Below are positions 6,638 through 13,435 of a stretch of DNA of 64,000 nt, piece after piece. Source of the DNA: Planctomycetota bacterium (lineage in GTDB: Bacteria > Planctomycetota > SZUA-567); assembly GCA_031254915.1 (NCBI GenBank), contig JAIRTL010000092.1, positions 1 through 64,000 of the forward strand, given 5' to 3'. Positions within the stretch are counted from its first letter, which is position 1; the number at the start of each line of letters is the position of its first letter. The notes under the pieces were generated by a model. That model saw nothing but the letters and a program-made list of their open reading frames with translations, had not been told where the DNA came from and did not search any database. The position numbers and the translations under genes were made by a program.

Positions 6638-8347
6638 TTGCGGGTTTGGGAGATGTACAAAACCTACGGCAACATCATGCGGCTCAGGCAGATACTGACC
6701 GTATTGGCCAAGCGCGGCTTTTCGCACTTCCTGGCCCGCATGCGCATCCACGACTACGCGCCGTGGATAGGCCGCCTGATGGATCCGGTGAAGGATCGGG
6801 GCGACCCGGTCGGCCGCGACCTTCCCAATCAACTCGCGCAGGCGTTCCAGGAGCTCGGCCCCGCGTTCATCAAGCTCGGCCAACTTCTCGCGACCCGCCC
6901 CGACATCGTCTCCGAGGATTTCCAGCAGGCGTTCGCGCGCCTGCAGGACAAGGTCGAGCCATTGCCGCCGGAGACGATCGTCCCCGCGCTCGAGGCGTCG
7001 CTCGGCCGGCCGCTCGACGGGGTGTTCCGGAAATTCGACCGGAACGCGGTCGCGAGCGGTTCCATCGGCCAGGCGCACAACGCCACCCTCCCGGGCGGCG
7101 AGGACGTCGTCGTGAAAGTCCAGCGGCCGGGCATCGGCAAGGTCATCCAGGATGACCTTGCGCTCCTCGAGTGGTTCGCGGAACTGATCGAAGACCATAT
7201 CCCGGAACTTTCCGTCGTGCGGCCCGTCTCCATCATTCAGGAATTCCGCCGGGCGATGGAGAACGAGCTCGATTTCGTCGGCGAAGCCTCATATACGTCG
7301 AAATTCCGTGAGATGCTGAAGGACGACGCCGGCATCGCGGTGCCGAAGGTTTATTGGGAATACGTCAGCCACAGCGTCCTCGTGCTCGAACGGTTGCGGG
7401 GAACGCCCCTCACCAGGGCGGGGGACCTTTCGGCGGAACATCGGGGGCGCATCGCCGCCGTCCTCGCCGACTGCTTCATGCGCCAGTGTTTCCTGGAGGG
7501 GTTTTTCCACGCCGATCCGCACCCGGGGAATATCTTCATCATGCCCGACGGCGGCGTCGGCCTGCTCGATTTCGGGCAGGTGGGCAGGCTGTCCGAGGAA
7601 CAGCGCCATGTCCTCGGCTTCATGCTCGTCGCGCTCGTCCGGGGCGAAACGGACGCCATGGCCGACCTGTACGCTGAAATAGGCGAGTTTTCCCCGGACG
7701 CGAACGCGGCGAATTTCCGCCAGGACCTGGCCGGTCTCGTCGACAGGTATTTCGGCATGCCCGCCGACAGGATCGATTTCGCCTCGCTCATCCAGGAGCT
7801 TCTCGCCGTCGCCCGCCGCAACGGCTTGCACCTGCCGCGCAGCTTCGTCATGCTGTCGAAAAGCCTGGTGACGATCGCCGGCGTCCTCCGCGAACTGTAT
7901 CCCGACTTTCGCCTCGACGCCGCCGTCAAGCCGTTCGCGCGCAAGCTCGTTCTCGGCATGGCCAATCCGGCGGCCGCCGCCAAGCGCGGCTGGAACACCG
8001 CTTCCCGCATCCTCGGCCTGCTCCGGCGCATGCCGGACGACGCCAAGGATCTGGTCGAAAAGGCGAAGGCGGGCAAATTCACCATCGTCTTCCACCATGA
8101 AAATCTCCACGACGTCGTCGAGCGCATCAGCCGTTCGTTCGACCGCTTCGCGTTCGGCGTCATCGCCGCCGCCGTCATCATCGGCTGTTCGATCATCCTC
8201 GTTTCCGGCCAGAACGCGATGCCGGCGAGCGACCTGCCCATAGTCGGCAGGGTGCCGCTGTCCGTGGTGGTGGCGTTTGTCGGCTTTTTCGGTTCGATTC
8301 TCGTGGTGCTGTACATGGCGTGGGGGATCTTCCGTGACAAAAGCTGA
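6638..8347 (+). CDS. ABC1/UbiB-family atypical kinase
   Basis: 569 aa. The family signature K-L-G-Q (79-82, in F-I-K-L-G-Q), the Ala-rich loop A-S-G-S-I-G-Q-A-H in place of a P-loop, the Lys of V-V-V-K-V-Q-R-P, the catalytic H-A-D-P-H-P-G-N and the metal site L-L-D-F-G-Q are all present. Two C-terminal hydrophobic helices (about 510-532 and 542-566) anchor it in the membrane, as in UbiB/AarF proteins of quinone or isoprenoid-lipid metabolism. No ubi or men genes are nearby, so its substrate is open. The TTG start is chosen because AAGGGAG lies 8 bp upstream; the ATG five codons later has no properly spaced site. Confidence 0.9.
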   Translation: MRVWEMYKTYGNIMRLRQILTVLAKRGFSHFLARMRIHDYAPWIGRLMDPVKDRGDPVGRDLPNQLAQAFQELGPAFIKLGQLLATRPDIVSEDFQQAFARLQDKVEPLPPETIVPALEASLGRPLDGVFRKFDRNAVASGSIGQAHNATLPGGEDVVVKVQRPGIGKVIQDDLALLEWFAELIEDHIPELSVVRPVSIIQEFRRAMENELDFVGEASYTSKFREMLKDDAGIAVPKVYWEYVSHSVLVLERLRGTPLTRAGDLSAEHRGRIAAVLADCFMRQCFLEGFFHADPHPGNIFIMPDGGVGLLDFGQVGRLSEEQRHVLGFMLVALVRGETDAMADLYAEIGEFSPDANAANFRQDLAGLVDRYFGMPADRIDFASLIQELLAVARRNGLHLPRSFVMLSKSLVTIAGVLRELYPDFRLDAAVKPFARKLVLGMANPAAAAKRGWNTASRILGLLRRMPDDAKDLVEKAKAGKFTIVFHHENLHDVVERISRSFDRFAFGVIAAAVIIGCSIILVSGQNAMPASDLPIVGRVPLSVVVAFVGFFGSILVVLYMAWGIFRDKS

Positions 8348-9095
8348 CTTCCCCCTCCGCCTCGCCGCCGCGATCCTCGTTTGCCTCGGGTTCGCCGGCT
8401 GCGGCAGCGAACCCGACGTCTTCCCGGAACCCGGCAACGCCACGGAATCCGCCGTCATCATGCGCGAGGCGGAACAGGGCGAGATCATCGTCGTGTACGC
8501 CTCCTACCCCCTGCGCCCGGGCGCCCCCCCGGACGGCGTGCGCCGCGCCGTGCAGCGGGCGATGGGGCGGGGGCCATGCTCCTCGGCCGCGTTCTACTGG
8601 TCCGAGCGCACGCTGTCGTCGCGCTGGATTCATTCGCAGATCGCCGAGCGGATCAGGCACGGCATAGCGCCGCGCGTCATCCTCGCCGGCCACGGCCTCG
8701 GCGCGACGACGGCGGCGGAAACGGCCCGGAGCCTGATGCGGGACCAGTCCGGCGCGGTCGTATCGCTTCTCCTTACCGTCGACGCGGTGAAAACGGGGAA
8801 GATCGGTTCCGCCGCCGGCGTCACGGGAACCGTCATCGCCAGCAGCCTGCCCGGCGTGAAGGCGAACTTCGTCGCCTACGACGCCGCGCCCGCCCCCGAC
8901 GGCGTCCGCCTGCTCGCGCACGTCAACTACTACCAGACGTCGGCCGGATACAACGGCGCGCCGATGCCGGGAGCGGAAAACCACCACCTGTTCGATCCCT
9001 CCGGGATGCTCAACCACGGCAACGCCGACGACTTCGCCTTCGCCATGCTTGCGGGCGATCTGCGCGGGACGCTGGGACGCGGAGGATGGCGATGA
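8334..9095 (+). CDS. Alpha/beta-hydrolase-like lipoprotein with altered nucleophile elbow
   Basis: 253 aa from GTG 8334, preceded by GGGGGAT. A lipoprotein signal ends in the lipobox L-G-F-A-G-C (about 14-19). The middle contains I-L-A-G-H-G-L-G-A-T, which looks like the nucleophile elbow of an alpha/beta hydrolase (G-H-S-L-G) with the Ser replaced by Gly. It ends with an H-x-x-L-F-D and L-N-H-G-N region. It may be a binding or inactive hydrolase relative anchored in a membrane. It overlaps ubiB by 14 bp and the next lipoprotein by an ATGA, indicating one operon. No named family was recognised. Confidence 0.7.
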   Translation: MTKADFPLRLAAAILVCLGFAGCGSEPDVFPEPGNATESAVIMREAEQGEIIVVYASYPLRPGAPPDGVRRAVQRAMGRGPCSSAAFYWSERTLSSRWIHSQIAERIRHGIAPRVILAGHGLGATTAAETARSLMRDQSGAVVSLLLTVDAVKTGKIGSAAGVTGTVIASSLPGVKANFVAYDAAPAPDGVRLLAHVNYYQTSAGYNGAPMPGAENHHLFDPSGMLNHGNADDFAFAMLAGDLRGTLGRGGWR

Positions 9096-9766
9096 TCGGC
9101 GGGGAACGGCTGGCGATCCTGGCGGCGCCGCTTTTTCTTCTCGTCGCCGGGTGCTACGACAACGTCTGGTGGGACTACCGCGACGACCCGTACCTGGCGG
9201 AGATGGCCCCCGGCGGCACGGCCGAGGCGCTGCGGAACGTCAACAGCGTGTACCTCGACACGCGGCAGGTGGCGCTGCGCACCCTCGCCGAGGCGGCGGG
9301 ACGCGCCCGCGCGAAGGGGAACGCCGCCGAGGCCGACCGGCTCACGGACGCCGTCATCCGCCGCTACCGGCAGGAAAAGGACGCTTCCGTCCGGATGTGC
9401 ATCGTTCTCGTCTGCGCGCCGGCGGTCGGCGGGGGGTCGACGCCGATGGCGTCGTTCCTCCGGGAGAGGATCGCCGCCGGCGAGTTCCCCGGTTACGCCG
9501 CCCTGTCCCTGGCGCACCTCTCGCCCGGGGGCGCGTACGAGGACATCGTCCCCCTCACCCGGCATCCCTCCCCGGAGGTGCGGCTGCAGTCGGCGGTCGC
9601 GCTCACGATTCTCGCCGATCCGCGCGGGCGGGACGCGGTGGCGCGGGTCCTCTGGAGCATGCGGAGTCCGGAATGGCCGGACGAAATCGCGGGCCGCGCC
9701 CTGGAAGAGGCCGGGACGTCCCTTCGCCAAAGGGCGGAACGGACTTACGGGCCGCTGTTCAACTGA
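9092..9766 (+). CDS. HEAT-repeat-like lipoprotein
   Basis: 224 aa. The lipobox L-L-V-A-G-C follows a short hydrophobic segment. Residues ~35-120 are helical, rich in Ala, Arg and Glu. The C-terminal part has H-P-S-P-E-V-R-L-Q-S-A-V-A-L-T, a good match to a HEAT/PBS-lyase repeat, followed by a second degenerate unit. The ATG at 9092 overlaps the previous stop (ATGA) and has GGAGG 6 bp upstream; an ATG at 9086 directly abuts the GGAGG and is disfavoured. Likely a periplasmic scaffold or protein-binding lipoprotein working with its neighbour; the partner is unknown. Confidence 0.65.
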   Translation: MIGGERLAILAAPLFLLVAGCYDNVWWDYRDDPYLAEMAPGGTAEALRNVNSVYLDTRQVALRTLAEAAGRARAKGNAAEADRLTDAVIRRYRQEKDASVRMCIVLVCAPAVGGGSTPMASFLRERIAAGEFPGYAALSLAHLSPGGAYEDIVPLTRHPSPEVRLQSAVALTILADPRGRDAVARVLWSMRSPEWPDEIAGRALEEAGTSLRQRAERTYGPLFN

Positions 9767-9784: not shown

Positions 9785-11050
9785 ATGACGCAGACAACCG
9801 CCGGAAAAAGAGGGCAGTCCGCGACATCGCGTTTTCCGGCGGATTTTGTCTGGGGCGCGCAGTCGGATCCGGTTTTCTCCGAGGGGGAGACGGTAAGCGA
9901 CTGGGCCGGGTTCGCCGGTCCGGACGGCAGCGTCCCGGACGACGGACCCCGCCATTGGCGGCGCTACCGCTACGATTTCCGCTCGCTCTCGAACCTCGGC
10001 TTCAACGCCTACCGCTTCGGGCTCGACTGGGCGCGGCTTCAGCGCAAGCCCTACGCTCCCTTCAGCCGCGAAGAACGCTACCGCTACCTCGAGATGCTCG
10101 CCGAGCTGCGGAGCCTCGGCATCGAACCCTGGCTTACCCTCCATCATCACGCGCTGCCGCGCTGGGCGGCGTCCAGGGGCGGATGGCTCAATCCGGAACT
10201 GCCGCGCCAGTTCGCCGATTACGCGGCGCGGGTCGCGGACCTGACGGACGGGGAGGTGGTGAACTGGGTCACGATCCACGAACCGCAGTTCTACGCCTGG
10301 AGTTCGCGCATATGGGGGTTGTTCCCGGGATCCGACTGGGGCCGCTTCGGTCTGGCGCACAAGACCCTCCTTCATCTCCGGGACGCGCATCGCCTCGCGG
10401 CGGCGGCGGTGCGAAGACGCCTCGAGAACGCCAGGATCGGCGTTTCCCTCCCCGGCGGGGGATACCTTCCGGAGCGCGCCTGGCACCCCGGCGACCGCCT
10501 GGTCGCCCGCCTCGCCGGCTGGCTCGTCAACCGGGCGCGGATCGGCCCCTTCCTCGGCGGAAGCGACTTCCTCATGATCGGCATGCGCGTCGTGCACCGG
10601 CTCAGGGCGGGAAACACGCTGTCGCTCACGACCGGGCTGGCGCCGCGCTTCGCGCACCGCGTCCACGAGGGCGGGGAGGCCGCGGAGAAAAACCGCGACG
10701 CGAGGCGTTCGGTTATCCGCAAGTGGCGGAGCAGGTTTTCCGGGCAGATCTACCTCGTCGGCTCGACGCCGCCCGACGCCGCCGACGACCCCGGTCTTCC
10801 CGGAACCGTCCGGGACTGTCTCGCCCTCGCATCCGGCGAGACGGGGCGCGCCCTGGGGATCGCCGGTTTTTTTTACGCGCCCCTGCTGGACCAGTTTTCG
10901 CCGATACGCGGCCTCGCCGGCGGGAGCGGCCTCCTGGAAGTCGATTTCCGCGATCCGGGGCGGCGGCGCGAGGTGCGCGGCTTCGCGAAAACCCTGGCGG
11001 AGGTGATCCGCCGGGGATCGTTGACGGAGGAGCATGACGATGGGGATTAG
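9785..11050 (+). CDS. GH1-family-like protein lacking the catalytic nucleophile
   Basis: 421 aa. The N-terminus F-P-x-D-F-V-W-G-A-Q-S and the segments N-A-Y-R-F-G-L-D-W-A-R and L-T-L-H-H-H-A-L-P-R-W are those of glycoside hydrolase family 1 (beta-glucosidase fold). The acid/base Glu166 is retained in T-I-H-E-P (family T-x-N-E-P). Where the nucleophile motif I-T-E-N-G is expected, the sequence has I-Y-L-V-G (about 322-326), so no Glu is present. The downstream region F-F-Y-A-P-L-L-D-Q-F still aligns with the conserved Y-W-S-L-x-D-N-F-E. It is likely a non-hydrolysing relative (binding protein, transferase or regulator). It overlaps the Memo gene by 17 bp. Confidence 0.75.
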   Translation: MTQTTAGKRGQSATSRFPADFVWGAQSDPVFSEGETVSDWAGFAGPDGSVPDDGPRHWRRYRYDFRSLSNLGFNAYRFGLDWARLQRKPYAPFSREERYRYLEMLAELRSLGIEPWLTLHHHALPRWAASRGGWLNPELPRQFADYAARVADLTDGEVVNWVTIHEPQFYAWSSRIWGLFPGSDWGRFGLAHKTLLHLRDAHRLAAAAVRRRLENARIGVSLPGGGYLPERAWHPGDRLVARLAGWLVNRARIGPFLGGSDFLMIGMRVVHRLRAGNTLSLTTGLAPRFAHRVHEGGEAAEKNRDARRSVIRKWRSRFSGQIYLVGSTPPDAADDPGLPGTVRDCLALASGETGRALGIAGFFYAPLLDQFSPIRGLAGGSGLLEVDFRDPGRRREVRGFAKTLAEVIRRGSLTEEHDDGD

Positions 11051-11930
11051 GCCGGACGCGCTTGCCGGATCCTGGTACCCGGGGTCGGCGTCGGCGTTGA
11101 AGGGGCTGCTGGCCGAATGCGTCGCCGAGGGGAGGCGTCTCCTGGCCGAAAGCGAACTGGGCGGCCGCGGACCGCCGGTCGCGATCGTCGCGCCCCATGC
11201 CGGGCTCGCCTTCTCGGGCGGCGTCGCCGCCTCCGCGTACGTCGCGGTGCGGGAAGCGCTCCCGAAGGTGGACGCTTTCGTCGTCTTCGGCGCGGCGCAC
11301 CGGGTTCGCCTCGACCGGGCGGGCATATGGGCAAGCGGAAGCTGGCGGACGCCTCTTGGCGCGATCGATGTGGACGAGGCGCTCGCGGACGCGCTTATCG
11401 GCGCGGGCGTCGGCGGGGAAAACGAGGCGGCCCACGCCGGAGACAACGCCGTCGAGCTGCATACGCCGTTCATCAAGGCGCTGTTTCCGGAAGCGAAAAT
11501 CGTCCCGGTCGCGATGTCGTTTTTCCCCGATTCGGCGGCGTTGGGAAAGAAGGCGTCGGCGGCGGTCCGCGCCGCCGCGCCGGACAAAACCGTGATCGCG
11601 GCCGCGTCAACCGATCTCACGCACTACGGCGCCGCCTTCGGCGTGCTTCCGGCCGGGGTGGGCGATCCGGCGCTCGAATGGACGCGGAAAAACGATTCAC
11701 GCTTCCTCGACGCCCTGGCCGCGCTCGACCTGGACGGGATCGTTCCCCGCGCCGAACGGGACGGAAGCGCCTGCGGCGCGGGAGCGGCGGCGGCGGCCGC
11801 CGGCTGGGCGGCGGAGCGGGGGGCGCGGGCGGGCGTCGTTCTCGCCTACGCGACGAGCCACGACATCGCCCCGTCCGGGACGGCGGAGCGCTTCGTGGGC
11901 TACGGATCCGTACTCTATGCGGCGCCCTGA
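11034..11930 (+). CDS. amrB: Memo-family protein (AmmeMemoRadiSam system protein B)
   Basis: 298 aa. The hallmark residues are A-P-H-A-G-L (about 58-63), G-A-A-H-R, V-E-L-H-T-P-F and the S-T-D-L-T-H-Y-G segment, which form a metal-binding pocket related to extradiol dioxygenases. In bacteria this protein often sits with an AMMECR1 protein and a radical SAM enzyme; neither partner is in the window. Two in-frame ATGs (11034 and 11040) follow GGAGG; the second has the better 9-bp spacing, but the longer form is listed. The function of the family is unresolved. Confidence 0.88.
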   Translation: MTMGIRPDALAGSWYPGSASALKGLLAECVAEGRRLLAESELGGRGPPVAIVAPHAGLAFSGGVAASAYVAVREALPKVDAFVVFGAAHRVRLDRAGIWASGSWRTPLGAIDVDEALADALIGAGVGGENEAAHAGDNAVELHTPFIKALFPEAKIVPVAMSFFPDSAALGKKASAAVRAAAPDKTVIAAASTDLTHYGAAFGVLPAGVGDPALEWTRKNDSRFLDALAALDLDGIVPRAERDGSACGAGAAAAAAGWAAERGARAGVVLAYATSHDIAPSGTAERFVGYGSVLYAAP

Positions 11931-11980: not shown

Positions 11981-13435
11981 ATGAAAAAGCAGGGCATCGC
12001 GACGGTGGATCTGGGGGCGTCCGGCGGCAGGGTGAGCATTCTCGCGCGCGGCGGGGACGGCATGAGCCTCGAGGCGGTTCACGAGTTCAACCATCCCGTC
12101 CATGTCCTGTCGCAGCGGAATGCGGACGGCCTGGCGGTCCGCCGCTACTGGAATCCGGGCGTCATTTATGAAAACATCCTCGCCGGGCTGCGCGCCGTTC
12201 CGGGCGATGTGGAACTGGCGTCCGTCGGCGTCAACGGCTGGGGTTCGGACGGCGTCTGGCTCGACCGCGACGGCTGCCTCCTCGGCCTGCCGTCGCAGGG
12301 TCGCGAGACGCGCTGGATCGACGCCAACCGCGAAATAGAGGCCGTCATTTCCGACCGCGAGCGCTTCCGCCTCACCGGCGTCAGGAACGAACCCTTCTGC
12401 CCCGTCAACCTGCTCCACTGGTGCGCGCGCCACAACCCGAGGCTTGTTGAGCTGGCGGAAACGTTCCTGCCCATGCCCGCCCTCTTCAACTATTGGCTGT
12501 GCGGCGAAAAGACGGCGGAACGAACCTGGATCGGCGCCGGCCAACTGATGGGGCTGGACGGCGCGTATTCGGCCGAAATTTTCGGCAAGCTCGAACTTCC
12601 CCTCGGCAAAATGCCCCCCGTCATCGCCCCCGGCACGACGCTCGGGCCGCTTCATCCCCTCGCCGCCGAGGCGACGGGACAAGCCGGCTGCCTGGTGACC
12701 GTCCCGGCGCAGCACGATACCGCCTGCGCCTTCGCCGCCGCCCGCGCCCTCGCCGGCGCCGACGACGACACCCTGGTGATCAGCGCCGGCACCTGGTGGC
12801 TGTCGGGGGTCGAACTGCCGGACGCGGTCACGGACGACGCGGCGTACGACGCCGCACTCACCAACGTCCCGGGCGACTCCGGCTGGATTCTCCACCACAT
12901 CGGCTTCGGAAGCTGGCCGGCGCAGGAACTCCGCCGCCAATGGTCCCTGGAGGACGCAAAGACCATGTCCTGGGACGAATTCAACCGCTTGGCGCTGTCC
13001 GATTCCGGCGATGCGCCGGTGATCGACACCAACGACGCCCGCCTGCTGTCGCCGGAAAACATGAGCCGGGCGCTGTGCGATTGCGCGGGCGCGTCCTCGG
13101 CGGGCCGGCCGCGCCTGGCGCGCCTCGTCTATGACGGGCTGGTGGCGACGACGGCGAAATTGGTGGACAATCTCGCGGCCGCGTCGGGGCGCCGGGCCGG
13201 GCGCATCCTCATCATCGGCGGCGGCGCGAGGAACGACGCCCTGAGCCAGCGGCTGGCCGACGCGGTCGGGATCGAAGTCCTCGCAGCGCTCCCGAACGCC
13301 ACCACGGCGGGAAGCGCCCTCATCCAGGCGCGCGCCCTGGGCTGGATCGATTCGCTCGCCGACGCCGCAGGGTCGCTGCCGCTCGCCGCGATGCGGGTTT
13401 TCCGGAGTGGCGGGAACGGGCCGGAAGCGGTATAA
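11981..13435 (+). CDS. FGGY carbohydrate kinase, rhamnulokinase type
   Basis: 484 aa, the length of RhaB. The N-terminal phosphate-1 motif V-D-L-G-A-S-G-G-R-V closely follows rhamnulokinase (D-L-G-A-S-S-G-R-V), and V-N-G-W-G-S-D fits the RhaB I-N-S-W-G-V-D segment. The C-terminal half has I-S-A-G-T-W-W-L-S and the adenosine motif I-I-G-G-G-A-R-N. It phosphorylates a ketose such as L-rhamnulose or L-fuculose. No rhamnose isomerase adjoins; the nearest functional complement is the class II aldolase at 54.4 kb and the FBP-type aldolase at 17.5 kb. Substrate specificity is inferred only. Confidence 0.85.
   Translation: MKKQGIATVDLGASGGRVSILARGGDGMSLEAVHEFNHPVHVLSQRNADGLAVRRYWNPGVIYENILAGLRAVPGDVELASVGVNGWGSDGVWLDRDGCLLGLPSQGRETRWIDANREIEAVISDRERFRLTGVRNEPFCPVNLLHWCARHNPRLVELAETFLPMPALFNYWLCGEKTAERTWIGAGQLMGLDGAYSAEIFGKLELPLGKMPPVIAPGTTLGPLHPLAAEATGQAGCLVTVPAQHDTACAFAAARALAGADDDTLVISAGTWWLSGVELPDAVTDDAAYDAALTNVPGDSGWILHHIGFGSWPAQELRRQWSLEDAKTMSWDEFNRLALSDSGDAPVIDTNDARLLSPENMSRALCDCAGASSAGRPRLARLVYDGLVATTAKLVDNLAAASGRRAGRILIIGGGARNDALSQRLADAVGIEVLAALPNATTAGSALIQARALGWIDSLADAAGSLPLAAMRVFRSGGNGPEAV

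Follow-up and report, generated by a model that had tools for sequence, protein, structure and literature searches.

An open reading frame in a planctomycete genome bin (2.75 Mb, 137 contigs) codes for a protein that is, by descent and predicted fold, a homologue of the glycoside hydrolase family 1 (GH1) enzymes and carries glycine in place of the catalytic nucleophile. The stretch of DNA analysed, referred to as the window, is 64,000 nucleotides long. Most plausibly (probability roughly 0.6), the protein is a pseudo-glycosidase that arose from an active GH1 enzyme of the same gene block and whose barrel now serves as a binding or scaffold module of conditional benefit. With Gly326 in the nucleophile position and the sugar-binding (-1) site largely gone, the GH1 double-displacement mechanism would no longer be available, and hydrolysis by this mechanism is judged very unlikely from the aligned residues. 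The protein and its relatives represent a GH1 derivative, conserved and probably non-catalytic, that is found in a small group of planctomycetes.

The reading frame was found exactly at the position and on the strand given in the first-pass annotation. It starts with ATG and codes for 421 amino acids, the stop codon being included in the coordinates (Table 1). The Pfam family PF00232 (Glyco_hydro_1) matched with 96.8 bits against a cut-off of 22.6 (E 1.3e-27), residues 15-224 alone being covered, and the score with the NCBIfam beta-glucosidase model TIGR03356 was 109.6 against a cut-off of 478.5. An AlphaFold2 model built from 48 sequences (pLDDT 83.9, pTM 0.87, low confidence in residues 34-55) predicted a whole (beta/alpha)8 barrel across the chain. 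A structure search with this model matched 1vff (Z 39.7, 2.9 A, 373 residues aligned, model residues 13-417), and this near-full-chain match to a GH1 structure indicates that the C-terminal half, too, is GH1 in a diverged form and not a different domain. The GH1 fold proposed earlier is thus upheld by both the Pfam match and the predicted barrel. No signal peptide was visible on inspection of the window protein by eye. Among the best 80 of 156 relatives, locus L002 of a Planctomycetota MAG came closest (83% identity over its best segment), though the comparison may have excluded records from the genome to which the window belongs.

Table 1. Positions of the putative pseudoenzyme gene, its key codons and the neighbouring genes in the window.
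Feature	Coordinates	Strand	Basis or remark
UbiB/ABC1-like protein, first gene of conserved block	6638..8347	+	
C2, lipoprotein-like, alpha/beta-hydrolase-like elbow GHG instead of GHS	8334..9095	+	fold tentative
C4, lipoprotein-like, weak HEAT-repeat similarity	9092..9766	+	start 9086 or 9092
Putative GH1-fold pseudoenzyme	9785..11050	+	ORF, PF00232, AF2 model, match to 1vff
Codons 33-64 EGETVSDWAGFAGPDGSVPDDGPRHWRRYRYD, candidate binding surface	9881..9976	+	inside most conserved family stretch
Codon 166, Glu in acid/base column, I-H-E-P for N-E-P	10280..10282	+	alignment; Arg/Asn in three clade members
Codon 326, Gly in nucleophile Glu column	10760..10762	+	family alignments; end of model strand
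Memo family (AmmeMemoRadiSam protein B)	11034..11930	+	ORF as called overlaps GH1 gene by 17 nt
Rhamnulokinase-like FGGY sugar kinase	11981-13435	same as GH1	3' of Memo

Originally, the I-T-E-N-G nucleophile motif was set against I-Y-L-V-G in the window protein. The catalytic Glu is indeed gone, but this register is wrong by two residues: in alignments with family intermediates, Y-I-T-E-N-G aligns with Y-L-V-G-S-T and the Glu column falls on Gly326. The intermediates that set the register read PVYITGHG, PLYVTGNG, PVYLVGHG and PVYFMGRG, together with the intact PIYVSENG. In the model, Gly326 stands at the end of strand 321-326. Alignment A2, made without most of the family intermediates and used as the structure predictor's input, has a gap at the Glu column.

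One alignment combined the window protein with 10 full-length relatives from f1, the taxonomic family to which it belongs, and with 11 further planctomycete GH1s, all 11 of which have the nucleophile Glu. The position is Gly in 8 of the 11 full-length clade members (window, G003, G013, G015, G009, G002, G008 C27 and G007 C96), so that the homologue search recommended earlier did recover the same substitution; Glu is kept in the other three (G004, G008 C41 and G007 C89). Outside the clade, both catalytic Glu residues were kept in 85 of 85 GH1s (the 11 comparison sequences and 74 further relatives), which are not a random sample, since the further relatives were drawn from the best 80 of 156 retrieved with six query-derived peptide patterns. 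Five of these 80 loci were left out because they were truncated (L002), cut by a contig end (L010 and L046) or over-long (L039 and L042), and L003 was not counted among the 85 as it is the G009 member of the clade. A chance origin of the glycine is unlikely, given that all 85 sequences counted outside the clade have Glu and 8 of 11 inside it have Gly. Among the ten planctomycete sequences outside f1 that are nearest to the clade profile, one of which (G033) is also among the 85, the nucleophile is Glu in nine and Ala in one. The exception is a GH1 of another planctomycete family (G066 C279; L173:7363-8880, minus strand) with the motif VFITANG, in which all nine other active-site residues considered (listed below) are kept; this single genome bin offers an independent case of a glycosynthase-type arrangement.

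In the trees, all 11 full-length members fall together (100/100), and the window protein groups with planctomycete GH1s, the trees containing no Klotho sequence. A phylum search covered 392 genomes drawn evenly from a larger group, with at most four candidates per genome and E up to 1e-60. The f1 members had E values of at most 1.6e-108, against 2.7e-77 for the best-scoring genome from outside f1, a gap from which the clade appears to be confined to this planctomycete family. A match is present in 10 of the 16 f1 genomes, in one of them (G001) in truncated form. At its C-terminal end, the family profile also matched 43 residues at G007:C6:49096-49224 (E 1.3e-8), with an internal stop; this match is perhaps a GH1 remnant and was left out of the member count. 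The eight nucleophile-less members group together, weakly (93/65, 71/75 and 80/76). In an unrooted 10-row tree of UbiB, G004 (GH1 intact) and G007 (GH1 nucleophile-less) separate together from the other rows at 100/100, and this pairing was not rejected when imposed on GH1 (p-AU 0.14 and 0.165), so two losses of the nucleophile are possible, one being the minimum.

Gene order was followed at 12 places with a simple gene caller and tblastn. The order UbiB-like, C2, C4, GH1 occurs at seven of them (G000, G001, G003, G013, G009, G007 C96 and G004), and an eighth, on a 3.3-kb contig of G015, has GH1 between the end of C4 and Memo. Memo lies downstream of GH1 in G000, G001, G003, G013, G015 and G009. 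The other four places are outside the block (the nucleophile-less G002 C64 and G008 C27, and G008 C41 and G007 C89), and neither C2 nor C4 found a match in genomes G002 and G008. As the intact GH1 of G004 sits inside the same block as the nucleophile-less copies, catalysis was most simply lost in place. The genes of the window from C2 to Memo overlap or nearly touch, which suggests a single transcript. The first-pass annotation had described the gene as lying between lipoproteins and a Memo gene and not in a sugar-utilisation cluster; both neighbours are as described, but the second half of the statement has to be qualified in view of the FGGY sugar kinase beyond Memo. This kinase is 76% identical to the copy in G001 (L141), the sole holder among the 11 relative regions searched.

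Selection was estimated as dN/dS by the Nei-Gojobori method with 1000 bootstraps and 95% confidence intervals. Two close pairs of nucleophile-less relatives are under purifying selection: the GH1 values are 0.103 (0.072-0.146) for G003/G013 and 0.172 (0.127-0.228) for G015/G009, and they are low in both halves of the gene (0.09-0.20). Memo gave values close to these (0.139 and 0.158 respectively), and UbiB gave 0.083 in G003/G013. In distant pairs, in which silent sites are near saturation, the GH1 value was 0.359 for window/G003 (0.430 in the C-terminal half) and 0.285 for G013/G009 (0.375 in the C-terminal half); in the same two pairs, Memo gave 0.420 and 0.231 and UbiB 0.388 and 0.160. For the window lineage, the genomes compared offered no close partner with an intact gene. 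Against the truncated gene of G001, dN/dS was 0.117 (0.073-0.171) for the N-terminal piece and 0.223 (0.096-0.467) for the 64-codon C-terminal piece.

The gene is also repeatedly broken or absent. The copy of the sister species G001 (L002:6001-6838; L141) has lost about 0.4 kb out of frame, which leaves a product of 237 aa. In G012 and G014, about 105 and 115 nt separate the C4 match from that of Memo; no GH1 match lies in this interval, and PF00232 matched nowhere in either incomplete bin. The incomplete bin G005 keeps UbiB-C2-C4 and has no GH1 or Memo match. Truncation in G001 and absence beside UbiB-C2-C4 in the other three genomes mean that any function is dispensable. They are also what a decaying relic would leave behind, that is, a gene that drifts to deletion after the loss of catalysis and whose product is useless, and the higher values of the distant pairs, raised further in the C-terminal half, point the same way. 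Such decay is nevertheless considered unlikely: the upper bounds in the two close pairs stay at 0.146 and 0.228 with both halves low, the N-terminal piece shared with G001 has a low value too, the open frames are full-length and the predicted fold is complete. The GH1 protein is thus kept under constraint in some lineages and yet expendable. The non-hydrolytic role proposed in the first-pass annotation remains likely on these grounds, with the nucleophile lost, the gene conserved in place in related genera and low dN/dS in two close pairs of relatives.

For the pseudo-glycosidase reading, residue losses, a conserved block, purifying selection in two pairs, an intact relative within the block and repeated absence or breakage can all be read directly from the sequences. 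The ancestor would have been an active GH1 encoded in the same gene block, which lost catalysis and retained the (beta/alpha)8 barrel. The barrel may then have become a binding or scaffold module that works through its conserved face, chiefly residues 21-60 and 101-140, and may act together with the UbiB, lipoprotein and Memo products of the block, with a benefit that would be conditional and not essential. Within the five-member sub-clade of the window, mean pairwise identity is 0.80-0.81 for residues 21-60, 0.74-0.75 for residues 101-140 and 0.68-0.70 for residues 61-80 and 361-400, and it falls to 0.38-0.50 for residues 241-360, which include the nucleophile strand. The most conserved stretch overlaps the region of low confidence in the model. 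Among the points against this reading, besides the truncated and missing copies, are that the nucleophile-less genes G002 C64 and G008 C27 lie outside the block in genomes that have no C2 or C4 match, and that the distant nucleophile-less pairs show the higher, near-saturated dN/dS values given above. A complex across the membrane is not obvious either, since the protein has no visible signal peptide and its two upstream neighbours are lipoprotein-like.

Most of the rest of the active site has been dismantled as well. The positions given here follow Thermotoga numbering. In the window protein, eight of the ten residues considered are lost: besides the nucleophile, Gln20 is replaced by Phe, Asn165 by His, Asn293 by Gly, Tyr295 by Arg, Trp398 by Ala, Glu405 by Ser and Trp406 by Pro. 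His121 and Glu166 alone remain, and of the glycone subsite (Gln20/His121/Asn293/Tyr295/Trp398/Glu405/Trp406, here F/H/G/R/A/S/P) only the His is kept. The N-terminal motifs, earlier called intact, are so only in part, with Phe in the place of Gln20 and His in that of the Asn of N-E-P. The acid/base Glu166 was correctly located (T-I-H-E-P, residues 163-167), but for the most part it does not hold up as a clue to function. Among the nucleophile-less members, the acid/base Glu is present in the window protein, G003, G013, G002 and G008 C27, and its column is occupied by Arg in two others (G015, G009) and by Asn in G007 C96. With seven further active-site losses and sisters devoid of the acid/base, Glu166 may be a leftover. 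Of the nucleophile-less members, G008 C27 is the least changed; in it the nucleophile is Gly, Asn165, Glu166, Gln20, His121, Asn293, Trp398 and Trp406 are kept, Tyr295 is replaced by Cys and Glu405 by Asp.

Glycine at the nucleophile together with a retained Glu166 could also describe a natural glycosynthase-like enzyme or an inverting transferase, with Glu166 acting as the base on an alpha-configured donor. Glycosynthases retain the acid/base and the sugar site, and residue 358 of the Agrobacterium beta-glucosidase Abg presumably corresponds to the column of Gly326. The E358G variant of Abg is an engineered glycosynthase with the same change from Glu to Gly (PMC6151457). The window protein has the Gly and Glu166 but a dismantled sugar site, with seven other residues changed, three of its sisters have no acid/base, and most of the site is kept in G008 C27 only; such an activity would be most improbable for it. 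A related proposal makes the glycine a gain at first, with a glycosynthase-like ancestor that would have built glycosides from alpha-configured donors and whose properties would persist in G008 C27 (and, independently, in G066), the window lineage having later turned to binding only; it is given very little weight. That the protein is still a hydrolase with a relocated nucleophile is barely credible on the alignment, for although the window protein has acids in its loop behind strand 7 (STPPDAADD), and Asp stands in the Trp398 column of G003 and G013 and in the Glu405 column of all four sub-clade sisters, that loop has no acid in G015 and G009, the window protein has Ala and Ser at the two Asp columns, and the 18 newly invariant residues of the five-member sub-clade include no acid. 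A displaced Glu that takes over the nucleophile position, which the first-pass annotation had named as what would refute its own reading, is therefore not apparent among the newly invariant residues.

Pseudo-glycosidases of this kind can be compared with several known GH1 proteins. The window protein has the fold and the N-terminal half in common with GH1 beta-glucosidases (TIGR03356, e.g. that of Thermotoga maritima) but has lost their active site and scores far below their model. Plant myrosinases are GH1 proteins that have lost the acid/base and kept the nucleophile; one catalytic Glu is replaced, which is the reverse of the case described here. The best-known GH1 pseudoenzymes are the animal Klothos, which are extracellular and have tandem GH1 domains. 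Klotho chains were among the PDB sequence matches of the window protein. The GH1-like domains of Klotho, which have no catalytic glutamates, bind FGFs, and in beta-Klotho the Glu retained as acid/base (Glu693) touches the FGF21 peptide when this is bound (PMC10628560). An acid/base left over from catalysis can therefore take part in binding, which speaks for the argument of the first-pass annotation on this one point. By analogy, Klotho would be the closest functional parallel, as a GH1 fold that lost its catalytic glutamates and took on a binding role, the role being putative in the window protein; the window clade appears to be a separate case. Unlike Klotho, the bacterial protein of the window consists of a single domain of 421 aa and shows no signal on inspection by eye. 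No bacterial nucleophile-less GH1 was found, by title or abstract start, among the open-access papers listed.

The f1 clade places side by side an intact enzyme in the block, a version with few changes, versions in which nearly the whole site is gone, and repeated loss of the gene. As these stages coexist in one bacterial family, the path from enzyme to non-enzyme becomes testable in small single-domain proteins. It would be misleading to annotate the genes as beta-glucosidases on the strength of the Pfam match. G008 C27 and the GH1 of G066 are of interest in their own right because their change equals the engineered glycosynthase type, whereas the window protein is without the sugar site that this would need.

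Two further proposals concerning partners of the protein were set aside. A role as regulator of an active GH1 paralogue is unsupported for G000, G001, G003, G009 and G013: no other PF00232 match was found in these incomplete bins (83-88% complete), the nucleophile-less copy (truncated in G001) being the sole one, so no active paralogue to regulate is seen there. Other GH1 matches do exist in G015, G002, G007 and G008. A strict joint loss of nucleophiles in GH1 and C2 is likewise unsupported as a rule: the C2 elbow has Ser (GHS) in 3 of the 10 genomes with a C2 match (G004, G007 and G014) and Gly (GHG) in 7 (G000, G001, G003, G009, G013, G005 and G012). In the window, the barrel adjoins this hydrolase-like lipoprotein with a Gly likewise at the nucleophile position, an observation made in connection with the glycosynthase-like ancestor. 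The Pfam matches of C2 were below cut-off (Abhydrolase_3, E 0.0013, in G007; Thioesterase, E 0.047, in the window), and its model, with a pLDDT of 50.6, was too poor for a structure search. HEAT_2 matched C4 with 22.0 bits in the window, below cut-off, and with 32.7 bits in G007, above it. In G007 (L138:6001-8781) and G004 (L134:1680-4628), a large protein of 926 and 982 aa respectively, with a signal-like N terminus and no Pfam match at E up to 1, is encoded between C4 and GH1; the two genomes belong to different genera. A second Memo-family match lies in a longer open frame (442 aa) at G000 C113:3598-4482, so that the Memo of the block is one of two.
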